In this document: piece by piece, positions 33,855-55,735 of the stretch | Layout of the letters: every line of letters begins with the position of its first letter | How positions within the stretch are numbered: the stretch's first letter is position 1 | Assembly (NCBI RefSeq): GCF_018130385.1 | Contig: NZ_JAFCLU010000008.1 | Location: 124,001 to 188,000, forward strand | DNA from: Bradyrhizobium sp. AUGA SZCCT0283 | Lineage (GTDB): Bacteria; Pseudomonadota; Alphaproteobacteria; Rhizobiales; Xanthobacteraceae | Direction of reading: 5' to 3' | Length of the DNA: 64,000 nucleotides | Notes under the pieces: model-generated | Databases searched by the model: none | What the model was told of the DNA's origin: nothing | The model's input: only the letters and a program-made list of their open reading frames with translations | Translations under genes and position numbers: made by a program

Positions 33855-35585
33855 GTGCTTCTGCCCCGGCAGACCCAAAGATGCTTCCGATACGTCTTCG
33901 CCAATACGTCATTTCCGAGTAAGCGAGTGGTTCGGCTGGGCTTCATTATCGGCTTTATCGCGCTGATCGGAGTTCTGCTCTCCGGTCTCGCGGCCTATCG
34001 CGTGCACGAACAGGAACTGGCGATCGACGGCATCGCGCTGTCCCGCGCCATCGACGTTCATGCCAGCCTGGTGCAGGACCGGTTGACCGAGCGCGAATTG
34101 CTCGCACGCGTTGCATCCGGATTGTTTCGCGCACCTTCGGTGGTGAAAGCCAACGTGCTGCAGCCGCTGCGCGCGGCGATCTATGCCTTCAAGACCGATT
34201 TCGTGATTGCATCGTGGATCGCGCGGCTCAAGCCAGGCGACCTGGCCGCGGCGCAGGCGGAGCTGAAGAGCGCCGGCTTCACCAAGCCGACGATCAGGGA
34301 TTTCGACGACCGGCCGCTCGACATCAAGGCGATCGACAAGCCGCTCGACGTCCTGATGGACCTCGAACCGCGCAGCGCGGACACGCTGGGCTTTCCGGGC
34401 CGCGCCTATGACCGTCACTCGGTGATCGGGCCGATGCTGGCGAAGGCGGCGGAGACCGGCAAGCCGGTGGCGTCGGACCCGATTCCGCTTCTGAGGCAGA
34501 GCGGGCCGGTCGGCCTCGTGCTGGCGTCTCCAATTCCGAAGGAAGGCAGCGCGGAGCCCGCCGGCTTCGTCACCTTTTCCTACGAGCTGGCGCCGCTGAT
34601 GCTGACCAACGACGACCGCTCGCTGTTTTCGGTGGTGCTGAAGGACCCTGATGACGCCAGCGACGAATATGTTGCCAACGACCAGGGCGCCATCTCCTTG
34701 CGGGAGGTCAAGCAGGGCGATCCGTTGCCATCGGTGGTGCGGACGGTGACGTTCGGCGGCCGCGACTGGTCGCTCGGCTACTATGCCAAGAACAATGCCG
34801 TACAGCGCGCGCAGCAGACGGCGATCGTCGTGGCGGCCATTGGCCTTGCGCTCACCGGCATCGTCTGCGGCCTGTTCGGCTATGTCGCCTACAACAATCT
34901 GCGGCTCAGCCGCGAGATCCAGGTCCGTATCGGTTTCGAGCGGCGATTGACCGCCGTCATCGACGAGCTCAACCACCGGGTCAAGAACATCCTCGCCGTG
35001 ATCCAGTCGATCGTGACGCGCACGTTGCGCCACGGCTCCGACATGGACGTGTCGCGCGAGCTGTTGATCGGCCGCATCCATGCGATGTCGAACGTGGTGA
35101 CGCTGCTCAGCGAAAGCCAGTGGCAGGGCGTCAAGCTCAGGGGCCTGTTCGAATCGCGCGCGATTCCGCACGCCGATCGCATCGTGGTCAACGGTCCGGA
35201 TATCTCCGTCAGCGCGCGCGCCGCGCAGTCGCTGTCGCTGTTGTTCTTCGAACTGGCCTCGCATTCCGACGAGGGACTGTCGCTGGTCGGCAAGCACCCG
35301 CACATCGTCGCCAACTGGGAAGTCACGGGCGAGGAGCCGGACGAGATCTTTCATTTTCGCTGGGAAGAGTTCAACACCAGCGCGGCGACGCGGCGGGAAG
35401 ACAGTGATTTCGGCCTCATCCTGCTCGACCGCGTAGCACCCGAAGCGATGGGCGGCACCGCGAAGCGCTATTTCACCGAAGTAAGTTACGTCTACGAACT
35501 CACCGCGCCGATGGAAACCGTCGTCGACATGACCGAGCGCGACCGCACCGAGCAGATTTCCGCACCGGTGCGGCCGGTGCAGTAG
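33855..35585 (+). CDS. CHASE-domain HWE-type sensor histidine kinase with degenerate N-box
   Basis: 576-aa membrane sensor. An N-terminal helix (about residues 27-48), a periplasmic CHASE domain (LLARVASGLFRAPSVVKANV to FVTFSYELAPLMLT) and a second helix (about 317-338) lead to an HWE/HisKA_2 phosphoacceptor region, LNHRVKNILAVIQSIV with His374. The WxE motif (RWEEFN) and a GFG-like DFGLILLD are present. The N-box reads FFELASHSDEG where HWE kinases have HELATNAxKYG, so the ATP/Mg-binding Asn is missing. It lies next to ecfG-nepR-phyR, so it is probably a general stress response sensor. The start is GTG 33855, or GTG 33927. Confidence 0.85.
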   Translation: MLLPRQTQRCFRYVFANTSFPSKRVVRLGFIIGFIALIGVLLSGLAAYRVHEQELAIDGIALSRAIDVHASLVQDRLTERELLARVASGLFRAPSVVKANVLQPLRAAIYAFKTDFVIASWIARLKPGDLAAAQAELKSAGFTKPTIRDFDDRPLDIKAIDKPLDVLMDLEPRSADTLGFPGRAYDRHSVIGPMLAKAAETGKPVASDPIPLLRQSGPVGLVLASPIPKEGSAEPAGFVTFSYELAPLMLTNDDRSLFSVVLKDPDDASDEYVANDQGAISLREVKQGDPLPSVVRTVTFGGRDWSLGYYAKNNAVQRAQQTAIVVAAIGLALTGIVCGLFGYVAYNNLRLSREIQVRIGFERRLTAVIDELNHRVKNILAVIQSIVTRTLRHGSDMDVSRELLIGRIHAMSNVVTLLSESQWQGVKLRGLFESRAIPHADRIVVNGPDISVSARAAQSLSLLFFELASHSDEGLSLVGKHPHIVANWEVTGEEPDEIFHFRWEEFNTSAATRREDSDFGLILLDRVAPEAMGGTAKRYFTEVSYVYELTAPMETVVDMTERDRTEQISAPVRPVQ

Positions 35586-36027: not shown

Positions 36028-36576
36028 TCATCCGCCATTGCCGCCGATCACCGCGCGCACGGTCTCGTCGGGTCCGAAATCCTCGGCGCCATCGACATAG
36101 AGCAGCGCTGACAATTTCGAGCGCGCGCGGTTGACGCGGCTCTTGATGGTGCCGACCGCGCAGCCGCAGATGGCGGCGGCGTCCTCATAGGAGAAGCCGG
36201 AGGCGCCGACCAGGATCAGCGCTTCGCGCTGGTCCTGCGGCAGCTTGTCGAGCGCTTGGCGAAACTCCTCGAACTCCAGATGGGCGTTTTGCGCGGGCTG
36301 GGTCTTCAGGGTTTTCGCGTAATTGCCCTCGGCGTCCTCCACCTCGCGCCGCCGCTTCCGGTAGTCGGAGCGAAACAGGTTGCGCAGGATCGTGAACAGC
36401 CACGCCGGCAGGTTCGAGCCGGGCTGGAACGAGTCGATGTTGGCGATGGCGCGCAGCAGCGTTTCCTGCACCAGGTCGTCCGCACGGTCACCATTGCCGG
36501 AGAGCGAGATCGCGAACGCGCGCAGGCTCGGCACCGACGCCAAAATGTCGTCGCGAAGAGAGTCTGTGAGAGGCAT
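36028..36576 (-). CDS. ecfG: EcfG, general stress response sigma factor
   Basis: 182-aa ECF15-type sigma factor. Region 2 runs from RAFAISLSGNGDRADDLVQE through NLPAWLFTILRNLFRSDYRK, with the strong region 2.4 typical of the family. Region 4 is LPQDQREALILVGASGFSYE then CGCAVGTIKSRVNRARSKL. It recognises GGAAC/CGTT promoters. The start overlaps the nepR stop as TAATG, so the two are coupled. In the absence of stress NepR holds it inactive. Confidence 0.97.
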   Translation of the reverse strand: MPLTDSLRDDILASVPSLRAFAISLSGNGDRADDLVQETLLRAIANIDSFQPGSNLPAWLFTILRNLFRSDYRKRRREVEDAEGNYAKTLKTQPAQNAHLEFEEFRQALDKLPQDQREALILVGASGFSYEDAAAICGCAVGTIKSRVNRARSKLSALLYVDGAEDFGPDETVRAVIGGNGG

Positions 36577-36773
36577 TAGTCCCTCCCGTCAGTTTTTGCT
36601 GTGTCGTCGATTTGGGCCGCCGCCGCTTCCGGCCCATCGAGCTTCCGGATCAGCTCCGCAAAGCGGTCCGGCACGCCTTGCCGAACCACGTCGTCGTACA
36701 TGGCGCGGAGCTGATGCCCGATCCTGGATTGAATCTCGGCGTTGAGCCCGCCCTGCTTCTTTACTTCCTTCAT
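36576..36773 (-). CDS. nepR: NepR, anti-sigma factor of EcfG
   Basis: 65-aa anti-sigma factor. The core GGLNAEIQSRIGHQLRAMYD and VPDRFAELIRKLDG holds the two helices that clamp EcfG or, under stress, phosphorylated PhyR. The last 15 or so residues are a low-conservation tail. ATG 36773 gives the usual short N-terminus; a TTG at 36818 would extend it by 15 residues with no family support. The gene shares one base with ecfG. Confidence 0.95.
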   Translation of the reverse strand: MKEVKKQGGLNAEIQSRIGHQLRAMYDDVVRQGVPDRFAELIRKLDGPEAAAAQIDDTAKTDGRD

Positions 36774-37071
36774 GGTCTGATCCACGCTTCCCCGAGAGTT
36801 AAGTCTCTGTGGTTTCAAGAGGTTACCTCGAAATTGGGCCTAGCCGCCGCGTTATTGGTCAAAGGCTAATGCGAATATGTCCGGAAGGTTCCGAAATCTG
36901 GGAACTTTTTCAGGAACTTTTTTGCCCCCCGCGAGTAATCGGGGGTGACAGGGGAACCGGGGTCCCCCCGCCGAATGCTAAATTGACGCCCGAGGCGGCG
37001 CCTCTGGTTACGTCCGCCCGGCTGAGACCCTAAGTAAGTACGCCAAGGATACGGCCCAAGATAAGGATGAA
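36774..37071. promoter_or_regulatory. Divergent nepR / phyR control region
   Basis: 298 bases between the two units. It holds four GGAAC elements: two near 36902-36918 and one near 36953 on +, and one at 36888-36892 on -. Only the minus-strand one has a plausible -10 at N16. A C-rich hairpin near 36922-36940 (GCCCCCCGCGAGTAATCGGGGG) could be a leader or attenuator of phyR. Confidence 0.5.
36868..36892 (-). promoter_or_regulatory. Candidate EcfG-type promoter of nepR-ecfG
   Basis: Minus strand GGAAC (36892-36888), 16 bases, then CATT (36871-36868). This is one mismatch from the EcfG form GGAAC-N16/17-CGTT. It lies about 95 bases upstream of the chosen nepR start. Autoregulation of nepR-ecfG is established in related bacteria. 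Confidence 0.5.
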
Positions 37072-37884
37072 ATGGGGATGTCCCGATCACAGCTTGTTGC
37101 TGAACATCTGCCGCTGTTGCGGCGCTATGCCCGTGCGCTGACCGGAAACCAGGCCTCGGGCGATGCCTATGTGGGTGCCATGCTGGAGGCCCTGCTGCAG
37201 GACGGCTCGCTGCTCGACGAACGGCATGGCCCGCGCGCCGGGCTGTTCAAGCTTTTCACCCAGATCTGGAATTCGGTCTCGCTCAACGACAATCCTGATG
37301 TCGCGACGCTGGCGCTGCCACCGGAGCGCAGGCTGTCGAACATCACGCCGCTGCCGCGGCAGGCGTTCCTGCTGCTCTCCCTCGAAGGCTTCTCCGAGGA
37401 GGAGGTGGCGTTCATTCTCAACGTCGACATCGCCGAGACCCGCGCGCTGACGGATGCCGCCGGCCGCGAGATGGCGGCGGAAATCGCCACCGACGTCCTG
37501 ATCATCGAGGACGAGACCTTCATCGCGATGGACCTCGAGAGCCTCGTGAAGAACCTCGGTCACAACGTGATCGGCGTCGCCCGCACCCATGCCGACGCGG
37601 TGGCGCTGGCCAAGAACAAGAAGCCCGGTCTGATCCTTGCCGACATCCAGCTCGCCGACGGCTCGTCGGGCCTGGACGCGGTCAACGAGCTGCTGAAGGT
37701 GTTCGAGGTACCGGTGGTGTTCATCACCGCCTACCCCGAGCGCTTCCTGACCGGCGAACGCCCCGAGCCGGCGTTCCTGATCTCGAAGCCGTTCCAGCCC
37801 GCGATGGTCTCCGCGGTCGCCAGCCAGGCGCTGTTCTTCCAGCGCAACTCGCGCAACCGCGCCCCGCGGGCGGCCGCGGGCTGA
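37072..37884 (+). CDS. phyR: PhyR, general stress response anti-anti-sigma response regulator
   Basis: 270-aa regulator with an N-terminal sigma-factor-like domain (RSQLVAEHLPLLRRYARALT to LSLEGFSEEEVAFILNVDIA) and a C-terminal receiver (VLIIEDETFIAMDLESLV, phospho-acceptor Asp in LILADIQLADGSSG, signalling Thr/Lys in FITAYPE and LISKPFQP). When phosphorylated, the sigma-like domain binds NepR and frees EcfG. ATG 37072 has AAGGAT nine bases upstream; ATG 37078 is an alternative. A terminator follows 30 bases downstream. Confidence 0.97.
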   Translation: MGMSRSQLVAEHLPLLRRYARALTGNQASGDAYVGAMLEALLQDGSLLDERHGPRAGLFKLFTQIWNSVSLNDNPDVATLALPPERRLSNITPLPRQAFLLLSLEGFSEEEVAFILNVDIAETRALTDAAGREMAAEIATDVLIIEDETFIAMDLESLVKNLGHNVIGVARTHADAVALAKNKKPGLILADIQLADGSSGLDAVNELLKVFEVPVVFITAYPERFLTGERPEPAFLISKPFQPAMVSAVASQALFFQRNSRNRAPRAAAG

Positions 37885-47709: not shown

Positions 47710-47890
47710 ACGTCGCCGGTCAATGGGGCAGGGGGAATAACCGGCTGCCGGGATGACTCCGAGCCCCCGGATTCGTTCCCGCGCTCCGCAGATTTTTTTC
47801 GTACACGGTTAAGTGATCGAGAAGCGCCGGACCTTCGATGGCTCGGCCCGGGTTGTGTCCGTGATCGCCATGGGGCGAGGGACAAATCGC

Positions 47891-48307
47891 ATGTCACAGA
47901 TTTTCAAAGCAATTTTAGCCGCTCTCGCTATTACCGCGACATTTGGCGCCTTCCAACTCGCCTCGGGCCACGACCTCACCGGCTGGCGGCAACTCGCCGC
48001 GACCGAGCCGGCGGCGGAGATCAACCGCGCCGCCAAGGCCGACCGCGCGGCGCTGAAGGCCGCGCCGGGCCAGACCGAGACGATTACGATCCGTAACGTC
48101 GGCCTCGATGACACCTCCGTGGTGGTGCGTGTTCCCGTGGTCCAGGCGCCCACGGTCCAAGCGCCCGTGGTTCGCGAGCAGGTACGGAACCGCCCGGCGG
48201 GGCCGGCCAGGCCCGGCGCATCGAAGATGACGGTGGCCTGCGAACCGCCGGTCAGCGTGTTGACCGAAGTTGCAAAACTGCTTCAGCCCGGTCGCTGCGT
48301 GACCTGA
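47891..48307 (+). CDS. Exported hypothetical protein
   Basis: 138-aa protein with a signal-like N-terminus (IFKAILAALAITATFGAFQL) followed by an Ala/Asp/Arg-rich helical part and a Val/Pro-rich repeat (VPVVQAPTVQAPVVREQV). Two Cys near the C-terminus (TVACEPPVSVL, QPGRC) may pair. ATG 47891 has GAGGGA eight bases upstream; ATG 47870 is an alternative. No family is recognised. Confidence 0.65.
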   Translation: MSQIFKAILAALAITATFGAFQLASGHDLTGWRQLAATEPAAEINRAAKADRAALKAAPGQTETITIRNVGLDDTSVVVRVPVVQAPTVQAPVVREQVRNRPAGPARPGASKMTVACEPPVSVLTEVAKLLQPGRCVT

Positions 48308-49115: not shown

Positions 49116-49568
49116 CTACTCCGCCGGCGCTTCGCTGGCGCTGCCGCCGTTGTTGGCGCGGCTCGCGAGAAATCCCAGCGCCAGCCCGCCGACCGCGAGG
49201 ATCGGGATCAGCTTCTTGACGCCGACGGCGCGGATCACCTGGATGCCGGCCGCCACCAGCATCGGATCGGACAGCACGGTCTGCGCGGTGGATTTTGCCA
49301 TCCTCGCCGCCTCTTCGGCGCGCGCCTCGATCTGCTTCTTGCGCGCCATGTAGCAGCCGGCCGCGATCAGGGTGACGACGAAGAAGATGGCGGCCCCGGT
49401 CAGGCAGGCCTGCACGGGACCGTATCTCTCCAGCACGAACACGAAAGCCGCCGCGCACAGAAAGCCGGTCGTGACCAGCAACGCCATGGCCGCCGCTGCC
49501 GCAAGCGACGTCAGCCGCAGCGCGGAGCCGGTCGACTCCTTGAAATCATCGATCAGTCGCTGAAACAT
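49116..49568 (-). CDS. Two-helix membrane protein, YqjE/holin-superfamily III-like
   Basis: 150-aa protein: an amphipathic N-terminus (MFQRLIDDFKESTGSALRLT), two adjacent hydrophobic helices (SLAAAAAMALLVTTGFLCAA and AAIFFVVTLIAAGCYMARKK), a charged helix, and a third weaker hydrophobic stretch near LIPILAVGGLALGFL. This plan and the neighbour fit the YqjD-YqjE pair of E. coli, stress-linked inner-membrane proteins. ATG 49568 was chosen; a longer reading to 49706 overlaps the intergenic gap. Confidence 0.72.
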   Translation of the reverse strand: MFQRLIDDFKESTGSALRLTSLAAAAAMALLVTTGFLCAAAFVFVLERYGPVQACLTGAAIFFVVTLIAAGCYMARKKQIEARAEEAARMAKSTAQTVLSDPMLVAAGIQVIRAVGVKKLIPILAVGGLALGFLASRANNGGSASEAPAE

Positions 49569-49736
49569 GGCCAAACCTCTGATCCAAGAGCCTCGATCCG
49601 AAAGCTGAGATCCGAAAACGACGTCAACGAAACAAGCCGCAATACGCAACGGCGCCGCGGCGTCTGGCTCGCCGCCACGCGCTACCGAAGTCGATCGGCG
49701 CCACAATCGTCTGCGCCCAAACTACCTGCGCCAGAT

Positions 49737-50108
49737 CTACCTGCGCCACGCCACGCCGATCAGAAAGCCGACGCCAAGCGCCAGCGCGACAGTCGCCAGC
49801 GGGCGCTGCGTGATGGCGTCTTCCAGCGTCTCCTCGATCGAGGACGCGGCGTCATGGGCGGCGTCCATCATCGCGCTGCCGCGCTCGGACATGTCGTCGA
49901 CGGCCTGTTCCGCATTGGCGCGCGCCTGCTTGTAGCCCCGGCGCGCCTGCTTGGTGGCGGTGCCGGCGAAACTGTTGAGCGCGTCGGTGATCTGTTCGGT
50001 CAGGGCGGCGATATCGTTTTTCACGGCGATTACATCCTTCTGCAGGCGTTCATAGGTCGCTTTGTCGGTCGGATTTCTCGTCGCGGCTTCACCGTTCGTC
50101 ATCGACAT
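49737..50108 (-). CDS. DUF883 family (YqjD/ElaB-like) ribosome-associated membrane protein
   Basis: 123-aa protein: a helical N-terminal domain (RLQKDVIAVKNDIAALTEQI), a long Ala-rich amphipathic middle, and a C-terminal membrane anchor LATVALALGVGFLIGVAWRR with the terminal Arg pair typical of the family. In E. coli, YqjD and ElaB bind ribosomes to the membrane in stationary phase. An exact EcfG-type promoter lies 37 bases upstream, and the YqjE-like gene follows on the same strand. Confidence 0.92.
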   Translation of the reverse strand: MSMTNGEAATRNPTDKATYERLQKDVIAVKNDIAALTEQITDALNSFAGTATKQARRGYKQARANAEQAVDDMSERGSAMMDAAHDAASSIEETLEDAITQRPLATVALALGVGFLIGVAWRR

Positions 50109-50144: not shown

Positions 50145-50169
50145 AACGCCCCGTCGAAGGGGAAGTTCC
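50145..50169 (-). promoter_or_regulatory. EcfG-type promoter of the DUF883 gene
   Basis: Minus strand GGAAC (50169-50165), 16 bases, CGTT (50148-50145): an exact match to GGAAC-N16-CGTT. The -10 element is 37 bases from the start codon. The spacer is itself partly palindromic (CCCCTTCGACGGGG). Confidence 0.75.
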
Positions 50170-50183
50170 CGGTGCGGAGCCGG

Positions 50184-51371
50184 CTAATCCTCGGGCAGCT
50201 GCGGCGAATCGGGCGGCATCAGATGCTCCTTCACGATCAGCGCGACGATTAGGAGCGGCGACGACAGGAACGCGCCCATCGGGCCCCACAGCCAGGTCCA
50301 GAAGGCGAGTGCGATGAACACGGCGAGCGCGTTCAACTCCAGCCGGCGGCCGACGATCATCGGGGTGAGGAAGTGACCTTCCAGGAAGGTCATGGCCGCA
50401 AACAGCGCCGGTGCGAGCAGTCCGGCGCCAATGCTCGGGAACGCGACTTGGCCGACCACGACCAGGACCGCGAACATCGCCACCGGGCCGATGATCGGAA
50501 TGAAATTCAGGATCGCGGCCAGCGCGCCGAGGCCGGCCGGATTGGGCATGCCCGTGACCGCGCAGATCAGGCCGGTGACGACGCCGACGCCGACATTGAT
50601 CGTGGTCACCATCAAGAGGTAGTTGCCGAGATGCTCCTCGATCTCATTGATCATCCGCAACGTCCGCAGCCGCGCCGTTCGCTCGCCGAAATTCATGATC
50701 ATGGCCCGGCGCAGGTCCCGCCAGCTCGCGATGAACAGGATCAGCGTGGCCGCGAACAGCAGGAATTCGGCAAAGGTCGGCGACAGGAATTCCAATGTCG
50801 GCTGTACCCAGTCGATCTTGGGCAGATGCAATGTCGTGAGCGTGCCGGGGCCGCCGAGCATGCTTTGCAGCTCCTGCCAGAGCGCGAGCGGCCGGTCGAA
50901 CACGTGCAGCTTCTCCTTCAGCAGCGCCCCCAGCTCCGGCAGCTTGCCGCTCCATTCCACTGCGGGCGAGGCGATCATGCCGACCATGAAGGTGGCCCCG
51001 GCGCCGGCGGTCGCCACGATCAGCACGGCGGCGATCGCGCGCGGAATGCGGCAGCGTTCGAGGAAACTGGCGGCCGGCGACAGCATGGTCCCGACGATGA
51101 AGGCCATCGTGATCGGCAGAAAGAACGCCCTGGCCAGATAGAGGCCGGCAATGATGCAGATGATCAGGAGGCCGACGAGGGCGATGGCCACCACTTCGGT
51201 GCGGCGGATGACCGGCGGCAATTCGTTTCTGCTGTCGGGGACCGGCGTACCTTCGTGCCCGTTGGGAAGCTGGCGTTCACCGGGCAAAGGTCTTGTCGGC
51301 GGGGATTTGGAAGCCAAAGGCCTGGCGGGCGAAGGCTTGGCGGGTACAGGCTTGGTGGGAATGACGCTCAC
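50184..51371 (-). CDS. AI-2E family (PerM/TqsA-type) transporter
   Basis: 395-aa membrane protein of the AI-2 exporter superfamily. A Pro/Lys-rich cytoplasmic N-terminus (about 60 residues) precedes about eight helices, with the family marks LNFIPIIGPVAMFAVLVVVG, FLEGHFLTPMIVGRRLELN and LWGPMGAFLSSPLLIVALIV. The family includes quorum-signal exporters and Na+/H+ antiporters, so the substrate is open. The start is GTG 51371 after GGGG; an exact EcfG-type promoter is 69 bases upstream, divergent from that of the L,D-transpeptidase. Confidence 0.9.
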   Translation of the reverse strand: MSVIPTKPVPAKPSPARPLASKSPPTRPLPGERQLPNGHEGTPVPDSRNELPPVIRRTEVVAIALVGLLIICIIAGLYLARAFFLPITMAFIVGTMLSPAASFLERCRIPRAIAAVLIVATAGAGATFMVGMIASPAVEWSGKLPELGALLKEKLHVFDRPLALWQELQSMLGGPGTLTTLHLPKIDWVQPTLEFLSPTFAEFLLFAATLILFIASWRDLRRAMIMNFGERTARLRTLRMINEIEEHLGNYLLMVTTINVGVGVVTGLICAVTGMPNPAGLGALAAILNFIPIIGPVAMFAVLVVVGQVAFPSIGAGLLAPALFAAMTFLEGHFLTPMIVGRRLELNALAVFIALAFWTWLWGPMGAFLSSPLLIVALIVKEHLMPPDSPQLPED

Positions 51372-51439
51372 AATGGTTTTCCCCCGCCCGAGGCGGCGAT
51401 CATAGGCAGACGCGACCTCGCGATCCGTACTGCCACCAC

Positions 51440-51464
51440 AACGTGGCGCGGACACGCGGGTTCC
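51440..51464 (-). promoter_or_regulatory. EcfG-type promoter of the AI-2E transporter gene
   Basis: Minus strand GGAAC (51464-51460), 16 bases, CGTT (51443-51440): exact match. It is back to back with the promoter at 51523, with about 60 bases between the two -35 elements. Confidence 0.75.
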
Positions 51465-51522
51465 AATCGTGGAGATGTGCATTGTCGCGCTTGGCAAGGT
51501 GGCACCGCAACGGCGGCCGAAC

Positions 51523-51547
51523 GGAACTGCCGGCCCCCCGGCGCGTT
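51523..51547 (+). promoter_or_regulatory. EcfG-type promoter of the L,D-transpeptidase gene
   Basis: GGAAC (51523-51527), 16 bases, CGTT (51544-51547): exact match, 47 bases upstream of the chosen ATG at 51594. Confidence 0.75.
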
Positions 51548-51593
51548 TGTTGGTGCAGAGCATCCAATGATGCACATCCAACGGGGCAGTCCC

Positions 51594-52361
51594 ATGACAC
51601 AGTCCTTTGATCGCCGGCCTTCGTCGCGCGTAACGGGCGCACTCGTTCTCATCAGCGCCGTCCTGCTGGCGCCTGTATTGTCCGGCGCTGCGAGCGCGCA
51701 GACCTTCGGCTACGCTGCCAGCCAGCCGAATGCATATCCTACCGATGAGGTGATCGCCTCCGACGAGGCCGCGACGCCCGAGCGGCTTCGCCGCGCCGTC
51801 GTCGCCTTTGGCACCACCGAGGCGCCCGGCACCATCATTATCGATACCGGCAACACCACGCTCTACTACGTGCTCGGCCAGGGACGTGCCATCAGGTATG
51901 GCGTCGGCGTCGGCCGCGACGGCTTTACCTGGTCCGGGGTGCAGACCATCAGCCGCAAGGCGGAATGGCCGGACTGGCATCCGCCGGCAGAGATGATCGC
52001 GCGCCAGCCCTATCTGCCGCGCTTCATGGCCGGCGGTCCCGGCAATCCGCTCGGCGCGCGGGCGATGTATCTCGGCACCAGCCAGTACCGCATTCACGGC
52101 ACCAACGATCCTTCGACGATCGGGAAATTCGTCTCGTCGGGCTGCATCCGCCTGACCAATGCGGACGTCGCCGATCTGTTCAGCCGGGTCGATGTCGGCA
52201 CCAAGGTCGTGGTGCTGCCGAAGAACGCACCGGTGATGGCGCGCGGCGGGGATAGCAGGACCGGCATCACGGCTCGTCCGGCCGGCACGCATCCGCGCCC
52301 GGTCGCGACCACGCCCTCGGGCCGCCAGGCGATGAACCTGCTGGCGCCGCAGCTCAATTGA
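51594..52361 (+). CDS. L,D-transpeptidase (YkuD domain)
   Basis: 255-aa exported cell-wall cross-linking enzyme. The signal peptide ends near ASAQT (about residue 36). The YkuD catalytic core shows YRIHGTNDPSTIGKFVSSGC: the His and the nucleophilic Cys followed by IRLTNADV are the catalytic pair. A Pro/Thr-rich tail follows. It makes 3-3 peptide bridges or anchors envelope proteins. ATG 51594 has GGGG upstream. It overlaps nothing and is followed at 36 bases by a DUF2865 gene. Confidence 0.93.
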   Translation: MTQSFDRRPSSRVTGALVLISAVLLAPVLSGAASAQTFGYAASQPNAYPTDEVIASDEAATPERLRRAVVAFGTTEAPGTIIIDTGNTTLYYVLGQGRAIRYGVGVGRDGFTWSGVQTISRKAEWPDWHPPAEMIARQPYLPRFMAGGPGNPLGARAMYLGTSQYRIHGTNDPSTIGKFVSSGCIRLTNADVADLFSRVDVGTKVVVLPKNAPVMARGGDSRTGITARPAGTHPRPVATTPSGRQAMNLLAPQLN

Positions 52362-52396
52362 GTCGACGCGTCGTGTGGCATGAGAGGAGAAGCTTG

Positions 52397-53035
52397 ATGC
52401 GATCAGGAAAACCGGCAGCATGGGGGGCAGCCGCGTTGGTGTGTGCTTCGGTGCTGGCGCCTGCCGCGCAGGCCCAGGACTTCTTCTCGCAACTGTTCGG
52501 CGGGTTCGCCCGCCCGCGCCAGCAACCCTATATCCAGATGCCGTTCGGCAATGACGACGGTCAGGTCTACGCGCCGCGAGGCGAGGGGCGTGCTCGCTAC
52601 GGCGGCGGCCAGGCGTTTTGCGTGCGGACCTGCGACGGGCGCTATTTCCCGGTCACCGCATCAGACAATGCAAGCCGCGCGGCTACCTGCAACGGCTTCT
52701 GCCCGGCGAGCGAAACCAAAGTGTTCTACGGCAGCAGCATCGACAATGCGACCGCCGAAAACGGCAAATCCTATTCGGAGCTGCCGAACGCGTTCCGTTA
52801 TCGCAACGAACTCGTCAGCGGCTGCACCTGCAACGGCAAGGACCAGATCGGTCTCGCGCCGGTCAAGATCGAGGACGACCCGACGCTGCGCAAGGGCGAT
52901 ATCGTCGCCGGCGAGAACGGCCTTCTGGTCGCCGGCCGCAGCGCCGACAGGCGCGGCGCCGAACTGAATTTCTCGCCCGCCTCGGAAAAGGTCCGCGCCA
53001 AGTACGGGCGGGTGCCTGTCGTGGCGAGGGAGTGA
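52397..53035 (+). CDS. DUF2865 family exported protein
   Basis: 212-aa secreted protein. The signal peptide ends AAQAQD near residue 25. The DUF2865 core has FCVRTCDGRYFPVTASDN, RAATCNGFCPASETKVFYGS and YRNELVSGCTCNG, with six or more Cys likely in disulphides. ATG 52397 follows AGGAGAAG. It lies 35 bases behind the L,D-transpeptidase and so probably shares its EcfG promoter; the pairing suggests a cell-wall role, but the activity is unknown. Confidence 0.88.
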   Translation: MRSGKPAAWGAAALVCASVLAPAAQAQDFFSQLFGGFARPRQQPYIQMPFGNDDGQVYAPRGEGRARYGGGQAFCVRTCDGRYFPVTASDNASRAATCNGFCPASETKVFYGSSIDNATAENGKSYSELPNAFRYRNELVSGCTCNGKDQIGLAPVKIEDDPTLRKGDIVAGENGLLVAGRSADRRGAELNFSPASEKVRAKYGRVPVVARE

Positions 53036-53081
53036 GGGTGCTTGCCGGCTGTCATGGCCGGGCATGACGCGTGGAGGGGAA

Positions 53082-55049
53082 TTACGCCGCGCGGATCTTG
53101 CCGAGGAAATCGGTGACCTGATTGCCCAGTTGCTGGCTCTGCGTCTCCAGCGTCTGCGAAGCGTGCTTCACATCCTCGGCGGCGGCGGCTGCGTCCGCAT
53201 CGGCCTTCACGCCGGTGATGTTGTCGGACACGTTCTTGGTGCCCTGCGCGGCGAATTGCGTCGAGCGCGTGATCTCTTGCGTCGCGGCGCCCTGTTGCTG
53301 CACGGCGGCGGCAATCGCGGTCGCGACCTCGTTGACCTCGCCGATGATGCTGCCGATGCCCTTGATGGCGTCGATGGCCTCGCCCGCTACCCGCTGGATG
53401 TCGGAGATCTGCTCGGAGATTTCCTCGGTCGCCTTCGCGGTCTGGCTCGCCAGCGATTTGACTTCGGAGGCGACCACCGCGAAGCCGCGGCCGGCCTCGC
53501 CGGCGCGCGTGGCCTCGATGGTGGCGTTGAGCGCCAGCAGGTTGGTCTGCGCGGCGATGGTGTTGATCAGGCCGACGACTTCGCCGATCCGCCCGGCCGA
53601 TTGGGCGAGCCCCTGGACGGTGCCGTCGGTGTCACGCGCCTGGCCGACCGCGCGGCTGGCGATGCCGGCGGCGTGCGCCGCCTGCTGGCTGATGTCGTTG
53701 ATCGAGGCGCTGAGCTCTTCGGAAGCCGCGGCTACCGTCTCGACGCTCATCGAGGCCTCGCCGGATGCCTTGCCGGCGACCTGGACGCGCTCGTTGGTCT
53801 GGCGCGAAATTGTCGACAGGCCGGCCGAGGTGGTCCGCATCTGGCCCGAAGCGTCACCGAGCTGGCTGAGCGTCTGGCGCACGATGCTCTCGAACTCGCC
53901 GACATAGCTCTCGATCGCCTGCTGCCACGCCATGGCGCCGGCGTTGCGCCCGGCCGCGACCTTCAGCATGGCGTCGCGCATATTGTGCAGCGGCTTGATG
54001 GCGCGGCGGGTGACGATTGTCATGGCGCCGAACGCGAGCGCCAGCGCGCCGGCCAGCAGCGTGAGCTGCATCACCAGCGAACGCTGGGCAGTGGAGCGCA
54101 GATGTGCGGCGTGATCCTTAGCGGCGTCGAGGGCTGCTTCGGCCACGGTGACGGCGGCGCCGAGACGCCCGACCGTGACCGGGGTCCACTGGTTGGCGGT
54201 CAGTTCCGGCTTCTCGCCGGCTGCGATCTGCGTCAGCAACCGGTCGCGCAGGCTGAGATATTGCGGCTCGAAATAGGCGGTCTTGGTCGCGGCGATCGCG
54301 CTCGAGATCGCCGGCGGCAGCTGCATTCCCGACGCCGTCGACTCGAGCGCGGTCCATGTCGCCTCGATGCCGCCGGTGAATTTCGTATAGGCGAGCTTCG
54401 CCTCCGGCGCGACCTTCCCGGTGTTGAGCCCGATCGAGACGATCAGCGACGCTTCGCCGGCGGTGTTGCGCAACAGCCAGGCGATCTGCTTGATCGCGAG
54501 CAACTGGTCGATCGTTGCGTCCTGATGATTGACGGCGGTGGCCAGCGTCCCGGACAACTTCTCCAGCGCCTCCAGCATGGCGTTGGAGGCAGTCATGTAC
54601 TCCTTGGCCAGTTCAGGACGGCGCTGTGCCTTCGGCTTGGCTACGGCTTCCCAGAACTCCTTCTGCAGCGTGGTCATCGTTTTGAACAGGCGGTCGAACT
54701 CGGGCACCAGCGTCTGCTGCTGGGCGAATTCCAGGCCGCCGAGCAGGGCGAGCGCGTTGCCCATCGCCGGCATTTCGGTGTCGCGGATGTTGCGCAGGTA
54801 TTTCTCGATATCGGCTTCCATCGGCGCGTCGGAATTCAGCAGCCGGGTGGTCGTGGAGCGGTCGGTGCGCAGATTGTGCATCGCCTTGAACATGTTCGCC
54901 GAGGCATCGGCGATGACAGCGATGCGGCTCGCCGCCTGCAAGCGGCCCCAGGAGTCCCAGGCATTGAGCGAAAATCCAACCACCACGCTGAAGGAGGTGA
55001 CGAGGATGACGATCTTCAGCAGCGCGGATACGGTCAGACGATTCAACAT
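53082..55049 (-). CDS. Methyl-accepting chemotaxis protein
   Basis: 655-aa transmembrane receptor. It has an N-terminal helix (about 11-30), a large periplasmic helical ligand domain (about 30-325), a second helix ([20 protein letters not shown]), HAMP, and a signalling domain whose hairpin tip is [20 protein letters not shown] followed by [20 protein letters not shown]. It reports to CheA/CheW; no che genes are nearby, so it is an orphan receptor. The ligand is unknown. Confidence 0.94.
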
Positions 55050-55180
55050 GGATGCTCCCCCGAGGCTCGCGGGCCATTTGGCGGGAAAGCGGTAAATAGT
55101 TAGACAGCGCTATTGCCGTATAAATACTAGGATCGTTGAAATGATTGCGGTTTTCCGAGCGATTTAAGGTTCCGCCAACG

Positions 55181-55205
55181 GGAACCCGATGCGCTCATTC
55201 ACGTT
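55181..55205 (+). promoter_or_regulatory. EcfG-type promoter of the 51-aa membrane protein gene
   Basis: GGAAC (55181-55185), 16 bases, CGTT (55202-55205): exact match, 51 bases upstream of ATG 55257. Confidence 0.75.
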
Positions 55206-55256
55206 AACAAAACACTGCCAGCGCATTTTTCGGCAAATGCCGAGGGGGGACCCCGC

Positions 55257-55412
55257 ATGCTCGTCAGCGTACTCATCACGTTCCTGGTCATTATCCTCGT
55301 TCTCTATCTCATCAACCTGCTGCCGCTCGACGGCCGCGCCAAGCAGATTGCCCGCGTCGTCGTGATCATCCTCGGCGTGATCTCGCTGTTGAAATACATC
55401 GCCGTCATCTAG
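55257..55412 (+). CDS. 51-aa Thivi_2564-type membrane protein
   Basis: Short gene. ATG 55257 follows GAGGGGGGA, TAG ends at 55412. The product has two hydrophobic helices (LVSVLITFLVIILVLYLINL and IARVVVIILGVISLLKYIAV) joined by PLDGRAKQ. I recognise it as the Thivi_2564 small membrane protein family. It is convergent with csbD across a shared terminator, and both genes have exact EcfG-type promoters. Confidence 0.8.
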   Translation: MLVSVLITFLVIILVLYLINLLPLDGRAKQIARVVVIILGVISLLKYIAVI

Positions 55413-55431
55413 CGCCGACCTGCCAAAGCAA

Positions 55432-55459
55432 AAAAGCCCCGGCACATGCCGGGGCTTTT
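55432..55459. terminator. Bidirectional terminator between the 51-aa gene and csbD
   Basis: Perfect 12-bp stem AAAAGCCCCGGC / GCCGGGGCTTTT with a 4-base loop, A run at left and T run at right. Confidence 0.88.
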
Positions 55460-55478
55460 GATGCTCGGAAAACGCGAC

Positions 55479-55679
55479 CTACTTCAAGCTCCCGAACCAG
55501 TCGTCCACGTCCTTGCGGATCTGGTCCTTGGCAAAGCCGTAGCGCTGCTGCAGCTTGCCCTCGAGTTGTTCGCGGCGGCCCTCGATCACGTCGAGATCGT
55601 CATCGGTGAGCTTGCCCCATTTTTCCTTGGCGGCGCCCTTGAACTGCTTCCAGTTCCCTTCAACCCTGTTCCAATCCAT
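55479..55679 (-). CDS. CsbD family stress protein
   Basis: 66-aa soluble helical protein of the CsbD/YjbJ family. MDWNRVEGNWKQFKGAAKEK, WGKLTDDDLDVIEGRREQLE and GKLQQRYGFAKDQIRKDVDD are the standard family sequence. CsbD genes are classic general stress genes (sigma-B in Bacillus, EcfG in alphaproteobacteria). ATG 55679 was chosen over 55712 since it gives the canonical N-terminus. An exact EcfG-type promoter is 32 bases upstream. Confidence 0.95.
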   Translation of the reverse strand: MDWNRVEGNWKQFKGAAKEKWGKLTDDDLDVIEGRREQLEGKLQQRYGFAKDQIRKDVDDWFGSLK

Positions 55680-55710
55680 CGCTGTCTCCTTCCATGTGGG
55701 GATGTCCAAC

Positions 55711-55735
55711 AACGGACGGAGAGCTTAAGCGTTCC
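55711..55735 (-). promoter_or_regulatory. EcfG-type promoter of csbD
   Basis: Minus strand GGAAC (55735-55731), 16 bases, CGTT (55714-55711): exact match. A CsbD gene is an expected EcfG target, which supports the motif calls elsewhere. Confidence 0.8.

Follow-up and report, generated by a model that had tools for sequence, protein, structure and literature searches.

Five EcfG-type sites at one locus

The DNA considered here is a window of 64,000 nucleotides from Bradyrhizobium sp. AUGA SZCCT0283 (assembly GCF_018130385.1, contig NZ_JAFCLU010000008.1, positions 124,001 to 188,000 of the forward strand); positions are counted from its first letter. A block of 5.6 kb within this window carries five exact copies of GGAAC-N16-CGTT, which passages on Rhizobium etli and Sphingopyxis give as the motif of EcfG, a sigma factor of the extracytoplasmic function (ECF) type (PMC3892343, PMC7083833). 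Each copy lies before a gene, and the genes phyR, nepR and ecfG are found in the same window. The five genes and their sites are as follows.

49737-50108, minus strand: DUF883 (ElaB/YqjD-like) gene, 123 amino acids; PF05957, 27.5 bits (cut-off 25.4)
50145-50169, minus strand: putative EcfG-type promoter of the DUF883 gene, exact motif match, N16
50184-51371, minus strand: AI-2E family transporter gene, 395 amino acids, GTG start; PF01594, 114 bits
51440-51464, minus strand: putative EcfG-type promoter of the AI-2E family transporter gene, exact motif match, N16
51523-51547, plus strand: putative EcfG-type promoter of the L,D-transpeptidase gene, exact motif match, N16
51594-52361, plus strand: L,D-transpeptidase (YkuD) gene, 255 amino acids; PF03734, 90 bits
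55181-55205, plus strand: putative EcfG-type promoter of the 51-amino-acid membrane protein gene, exact motif match, N16
55257-55412, plus strand: Thivi_2564 family membrane protein gene, 51 amino acids; NF041949, 54.7 bits (cut-off 33)
55479-55679, minus strand: CsbD-family gene, 66 amino acids; PF05532, 80.8 bits
55711-55735, minus strand: putative EcfG-type promoter of csbD, exact motif match, N16

An earlier note on this DNA had described five exact sites with a 16-base spacer, located 30 to 70 bases before the start codons, and this description is correct. The window holds five exact N16 sites, all of them inside 50145-55735, and the -10 box ends 36 bases before the start codon for DUF883, 68 for AI-2E (GTG), 46 for the L,D-transpeptidase (ATG), 51 for the 51-amino-acid gene and 31 for csbD. 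Dinucleotide shuffles of the window gave a mean of 0.53 sites, in agreement with the roughly 0.5 matches per 64 kb that the earlier note had expected, and none of 100 shuffles reached five. When the scan of the window was widened to spacers of 15 to 18 bases, no further exact site appeared; the shuffle mean was then 1.71 and five sites were reached in 2 of 100 shuffles. With one mismatch allowed, there are 20 sites at N16 versus 17 at N17, 13 at N15 and 12 at N18. This excess is small, and the signal is therefore carried by the exact sites.

Conservation of the sites in related genomes

Have these sites been maintained in related bacteria? Relatives were collected by a search with the AI-2E protein, and the best 80 of 241 were kept; 76 of them are titled Bradyrhizobium and four are less exactly named metagenome-assembled genomes. 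The flanks extend for at most 10 kb and some loci end at contig ends. Gene order is largely conserved across the 80 loci, including the non-target genes for malate synthase, DUF2865 and a chemotaxis receptor (MCP). The csbD gene was recovered in 34 loci, the MCP gene in 51 and the 51-amino-acid gene in 76.

Exact sites recur before the same genes. They were found before DUF883 in 73 loci at N16 and three at N17 (of 77), before the 51-amino-acid gene in 63 and four (of 76), and before csbD in 29 and four of the 34 loci where this gene was found. The L,D-transpeptidase gene has an exact site at N16 in 25 loci and at N17 in 47 of 80, and the search of the whole intergenic region gives 72 of 80. 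Control genes from the same loci were almost devoid of exact sites at these two spacings: malate synthase had none at N16 and one at N17 in 74 loci, DUF2865 none and one in 75, the gene p47813 one and one in 45, and there were none before MCP (46 loci), the Holin-X-like gene (76) or DsbA (7).

Across 1.49 Mb of homologous loci, the motif occurs 276 times at N16 and 83 times at N17, versus 2 to 29 times at any other spacing between 10 and 23. The 359 sites at N16 or N17 were assigned to the five genes in 302 cases, to control genes in two, to other genes in 35 and to none in 20. Where loci could be anchored on GGAAC, CGTT followed at N16 or N17 in 71 of 72 loci for DUF883, 71 of 79 for the L,D-transpeptidase, 67 of 76 for Thivi_2564, 33 of 34 for CsbD and 17 of 17 for AI-2E, for which anchoring was impossible in 63 loci. 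The mean identity of the spacers between the boxes in the anchored loci is only 0.36 to 0.49. It is difficult to account for boxes held at a fixed spacing around drifting spacers unless the promoter is under selection. Judging by this pattern, each of the five sites is very probably a sigma-EcfG promoter. The designation as EcfG-type promoters in the earlier note is thus borne out, in that the sites behave as conserved promoters with respect to relatives, spacers and control genes. Conserved spacing with drifting spacers also offers a cheap test for promoters of this type.

The AI-2E and L,D-transpeptidase genes are divergent, and their -35 boxes lie 58 bases apart in the window (51465-51522). 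Both sites are present in 52 of the 80 loci, and the gap is 58 or 59 bases in 45 of these 52. In relatives (loci L031 to L110) the gap holds a conserved stretch that adjoins the AI-2E -35 box; by eye, it is weakly kept in the window. This stretch may serve a further regulator as a binding site, or it may merely be slow-changing DNA; a housekeeping promoter within the gap was considered by eye.

The phyR-nepR-ecfG core and its linkage to the block

The core genes of the general stress response and the features beside them lie at lower positions of the window than the block.

33855-35585, plus strand: HWE histidine kinase gene with CHASE domain, beside the core; PF07536, 82 bits, and PF03924, 28.8 bits
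36028-36576, minus strand: ecfG, ECF sigma factor gene; NF009192 (RNA polymerase sigma factor), 392 bits (cut-off 307)
36576-36818, minus strand: nepR, start uncertain; PF18557, 58.7 bits on the part 36576-36770
36868-36892, minus strand: likely autoregulatory promoter of nepR-ecfG, GGAAC-N16-CATT, one mismatch
37072-37884, plus strand: phyR; NF006623, 363 bits (cut-off 240)

The name EcfG is given because the gene adjoins nepR and phyR. The core (36028-37884) lies 12.3 kb from the nearest of the five sites. In relatives, the promoter in the nepR direction has a one-mismatch site (CATT) in 16 of 19 loci, and a site in the phyR direction is present in 11 of 19, with CGTA in ten and an exact match in one.

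Is the core regularly found near the block? A tblastn search within the 80 loci, whose flanks of at most 10 kb are often cut, gave a PhyR match in 25, and PhyR, NepR and EcfG are all present in 19. A further 19 of the 80 loci (for example L067, L098, L107 and L109) have an HWE kinase within 10 kb of the block and no PhyR match in the fetched flank. Linkage was also examined at the level of the family, for the Thivi_2564 gene and phyR only, in 57 genomes chosen from the 134 with a Thivi_2564 match among 198 family genomes; distances were taken between positions on the same contig. The two genes lie at most 21 kb apart on the same contig in 37 of the 57 genomes. By genus, they are linked in 6 of 13 genomes of the own genus, in 31 of 31 from nine other genera (in one of these, G342, the Thivi_2564 match is under the family cut-off) and in 0 of 13 from nine further genera. 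In the 20 unlinked genomes, the genes are at least 0.7 Mb apart or on separate contigs. For the Thivi_2564 gene, the proximity to the core that the earlier note had pointed out for the block recurs in nine other genera, but it is absent from 7 of the 13 own-genus genomes and from nine further genera.

Outside the genus, where the loci span 3-6 kb, a match to DUF883, AI-2E, the L,D-transpeptidase or CsbD was found near Thivi_2564 in 25 of 80 loci, representing 10 of 36 groups. Among own-genus genomes with data on both linkage and the Thivi_2564 site, the site is exact in all 3 that are linked and all 7 that are unlinked, so that linkage is not needed there. No evidence was found in these comparisons that position itself regulates anything.

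The Thivi_2564 gene

The 51-amino-acid protein scores above the cut-off for the NCBIfam family THIVI_2564 and matches no family in Pfam. A structure model built with 25 aligned sequences (mean predicted local distance difference test score 90.7) places helices at residues 2-21 and 26-50, and the protein is accordingly predicted to be a two-helix hairpin. With the own genome counted, the family occurs in 134 of 198 genomes from the bacterial family, 4 of 241 from the class and 23 of 299 from the phylum. A literature search by the name Thivi_2564 returned no paper.

Up to 220 bases upstream of the gene were searched at N15 to N18 in 92 loci, of which 46 have an exact site, 28 a site with one mismatch and 18 a site with two or three. 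Exact sites are present in 12 of 12 loci of the own genus and in 34 of 80 outside it, corresponding to 21 of 36 groups. They concentrate at N16 (35 sites) and N17 (10), with none or one at any other spacing between 10 and 23, while the opposite strand, used as a control, has two at N16 and one at N17. Neighbouring genes have an exact site in 36 of 263 cases; this control is not clean, as many of these neighbours are csbD, DUF883-like or L,D-transpeptidase genes. The Thivi_2564 family gains a likely regulatory context.

A different arrangement is encountered in family f138, which belongs to the same order. There, Thivi_2564 is preceded by an exact site of its own in just 1 of 10 loci. In five loci (L202, L209, L210, L211 and L212), the gene lies 63-88 bases behind another gene that does have an exact EcfG-type site, and Thivi_2564 may be transcribed from that promoter as part of a two-gene unit. 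The preceding gene encodes 116-119 amino acids and has no Pfam match above the cut-off. Its identity as DUF883 was considered and rejected, by Pfam in all five loci and by tblastn with the DUF883 protein of the window.

The motif in the rest of the genome and its interpretation

Taken together, it is highly probable that the block is a conserved neighbourhood of general-stress target genes near phyR-nepR-ecfG, every one of them with a sigma-EcfG promoter to itself. Under stress, a kinase would phosphorylate PhyR; phosphorylated PhyR would bind NepR, and EcfG would be freed. RNA polymerase with EcfG would then initiate at the five GGAAC-N16-CGTT sites and switch on DUF883 (perhaps together with the Holin-X-like gene), the AI-2E family transporter, the L,D-transpeptidase, the Thivi_2564 hairpin protein and csbD. 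The use of the five sites by EcfG in this particular strain is what we infer from the DNA.

Several results weigh against this interpretation. The host genome comprises 8.07 Mb in 111 contigs, and its exact sites are no more numerous than those of a reversed-pattern control: 111 versus 137 at N16 and 60 versus 72 at N17. Raw genome-wide counts are uninformative for this reason. Only 42 of the 104 N16 sites examined (of 111) are promoter-like, that is, outside genes and 10-150 bases before a called gene; one lies before a gene but within another, 41 are intergenic without such a gene and 20 are intragenic. The gene caller behind these classes is a simple one, and it missed the AI-2E start. The AI-2E site is the weakest of the five in relatives, being found in 32 loci at N16 and four at N17 of 80 when the start was extrapolated and in 58 of 80 over the whole intergenic region. 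Sites with one mismatch are present at two of the control genes, DUF2865 (14 of 75 at N16) and p47813 (24 of 45 at N17). Finally, outside the own genus, an exact Thivi_2564 site is present in 12 of 21 linked versus 2 of 12 unlinked genomes; the unlinked ones are of different genera, and kinship may explain why exact sites go with linkage there.

Could the five matches be chance hits to a short motif? Taken on their own, raw counts that do not exceed the control would allow it. The shuffles, the conservation of a fixed spacing around drifting spacers, and the near absence of exact sites from control genes all speak against it; this explanation is rejected by conservation and its probability is negligible.

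Alternatively, the genome might encode a further ECF sigma factor that recognises a similar -35 box and serves these promoters. Bradyrhizobium japonicum is stated to encode 17 putative ECF factors (PMC3420878), and the -35 box given for Escherichia coli RpoE in one source passage is GGAACTT (PMC8103513). Against this stands the bipartite motif GGAAC-N16-CGTT, which is that published for EcfG in R. etli and Sphingopyxis (PMC3892343, PMC7083833). In addition, several further genes with exact sites are typical general stress genes. Nine such genes elsewhere in this genome were searched with Pfam: one had no family, and the other eight are ferritin/Dps-like, Ku, superoxide dismutase, PRC-barrel, two further CsbD, DUF1328 and a histidine kinase. 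Use of the sites by a different ECF factor is thus improbable.

Does the clustering have a meaning of its own? The promoters may be genuine EcfG promoters, with each gene recruited separately, while their clustering and their nearness to the core are functionless consequences of an inherited gene order. This is compatible with a conserved neighbourhood of EcfG targets, because it concerns only the meaning of the cluster, and the chances that it is correct are about even. The non-target genes (malate synthase, DUF2865 and MCP) largely stay in order as well, the Thivi_2564 site is exact in all seven own-genus genomes that have no phyR nearby, and an HWE kinase without a PhyR match lies near the block in the 19 loci mentioned above. 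On the other hand, uniform and independent placement would rarely bring five sites into 5.6 kb: at least five in 5,591 bases were obtained in 3 of 20,000 simulations with 111 sites and in none of 20,000 with 48, although these simulations take no account of gene order or of where contigs end. Two other clumps of exact sites, with three in 0.8 kb on contig 59 (L111) and four in 3.2 kb on contig 74 (L112), suggest that targets tend to gather. Outside the genus, the commoner occurrence of exact Thivi_2564 sites in linked genomes (12 of 21 versus 2 of 12) also argues against a purely inherited order, though different genera are being compared.

The local EcfG cluster of the earlier note thus stands as five sites gathered in 5.6 kb but is not unique in the genome, and its status as a local regulon is qualified by the DUF2865 and chemotaxis receptor genes that the block also contains. 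The homologues of these two genes in relatives almost never have an exact site. As to the two other clumps, one of them precedes small secreted-like reading frames and one contains a divergent pair.

A more far-reaching proposal is a general-stress island, in which targets and switch stay together in at least ten genera, Thivi_2564 is an unrecognised standard EcfG target, and the AI-2E/L,D-transpeptidase pair is jointly controlled by EcfG and a second factor through the conserved element in its fixed gap of 58-59 bases. This is doubtful, as only the linkage of Thivi_2564 to phyR was measured in the ten genera and partners lie near Thivi_2564 in just 10 of 36 groups.

Relation to known systems

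Rather than a new regulatory system, the block represents a conserved neighbourhood of targets of a known sigma factor. Its regulator and motif, like some of its targets, are of known kinds, and it is the cluster, the connection with Thivi_2564 and the fixed divergent geometry that are worth following. The partner switch, the GGAAC-N16-CGTT motif and the autoregulated core are described as established in other strains in the passages compared (PMC8103513, PMC3892343, PMC7083833, PMC4814048). Judging by such passages, the core genes, motif and spacing here are the same as in the sigma-EcfG/PhyR-NepR regulon of Alphaproteobacteria, with which csbD, Ku and PRC-barrel are shared as target families. 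The earlier note had remarked that the block includes small genes not usually named as targets. This does not apply to csbD, which in Sphingopyxis is named among the genes that the general stress response regulates directly (PMC7083833); the literature search yielded one paper with both CsbD and EcfG.

The divergent nepR-ecfG/phyR genes are usually encoded together at one locus, which carries EcfG promoters of its own (PMC8103513, PMC4814048). In contrast, the neighbourhood described here reaches target genes 12-20 kb away, and most core promoter sites in the relatives examined deviate from the motif at one -10 base. The literature passages compared do not describe a tight five-promoter EcfG cluster near the core with a Thivi_2564 gene; the Bradyrhizobium regulon study (Gourion 2009) lies outside that comparison and may list orthologues. 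EcfG of B. japonicum is reported to be important for heat and desiccation tolerance and for symbiosis (PMC3420878). For the stress response of Bradyrhizobium, the block offers a concrete set of targets open to testing, and it leaves the existing picture of how EcfG works unchanged.

Neighbouring genes and minor observations

The DUF883 gene of the block is followed downstream by a gene for a membrane protein.

49116-49568, minus strand: Holin-X/YqjE-like membrane protein gene, start taken from the gene caller; PF07332, 21 bits (below the cut-off of 28.4)

The order of a DUF883 gene and then a Holin-X-like gene (49116-50108) resembles the yqjD-yqjE arrangement of E. coli. The Holin-X-like gene has no exact site of its own, and neither have its homologues (0 of 76 loci at N16 or N17); it is possibly transcribed from the DUF883 promoter. 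ElaB of E. coli, which we take to belong to the DUF883 family, offers a comparison, although the match of the window's DUF883 protein to the ElaB model is weak, at 26.5 bits for a cut-off of 139. ElaB is regulated by RpoS and maintains membrane integrity (PMC6389858). ElaB/YqjD would thus likewise be a DUF883-type gene under a general stress sigma factor, but the sigma factor is a different one and E. coli belongs to another bacterial class. By analogy, RpoS and EcfG may share a choice of target families. The block products may have an 'envelope-protective' role, as the earlier note put it, judging by their family names.

The one-mismatch sites that recur upstream of the homologues of DUF2865 and p47813 (window 47888-48307) are possibly degenerate EcfG promoters. 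Exact sites also recur before additional small genes in the flanking DNA of the 80 loci (L046, L048 and others); these genes form groups of 10, 9, 4 and 4 members.

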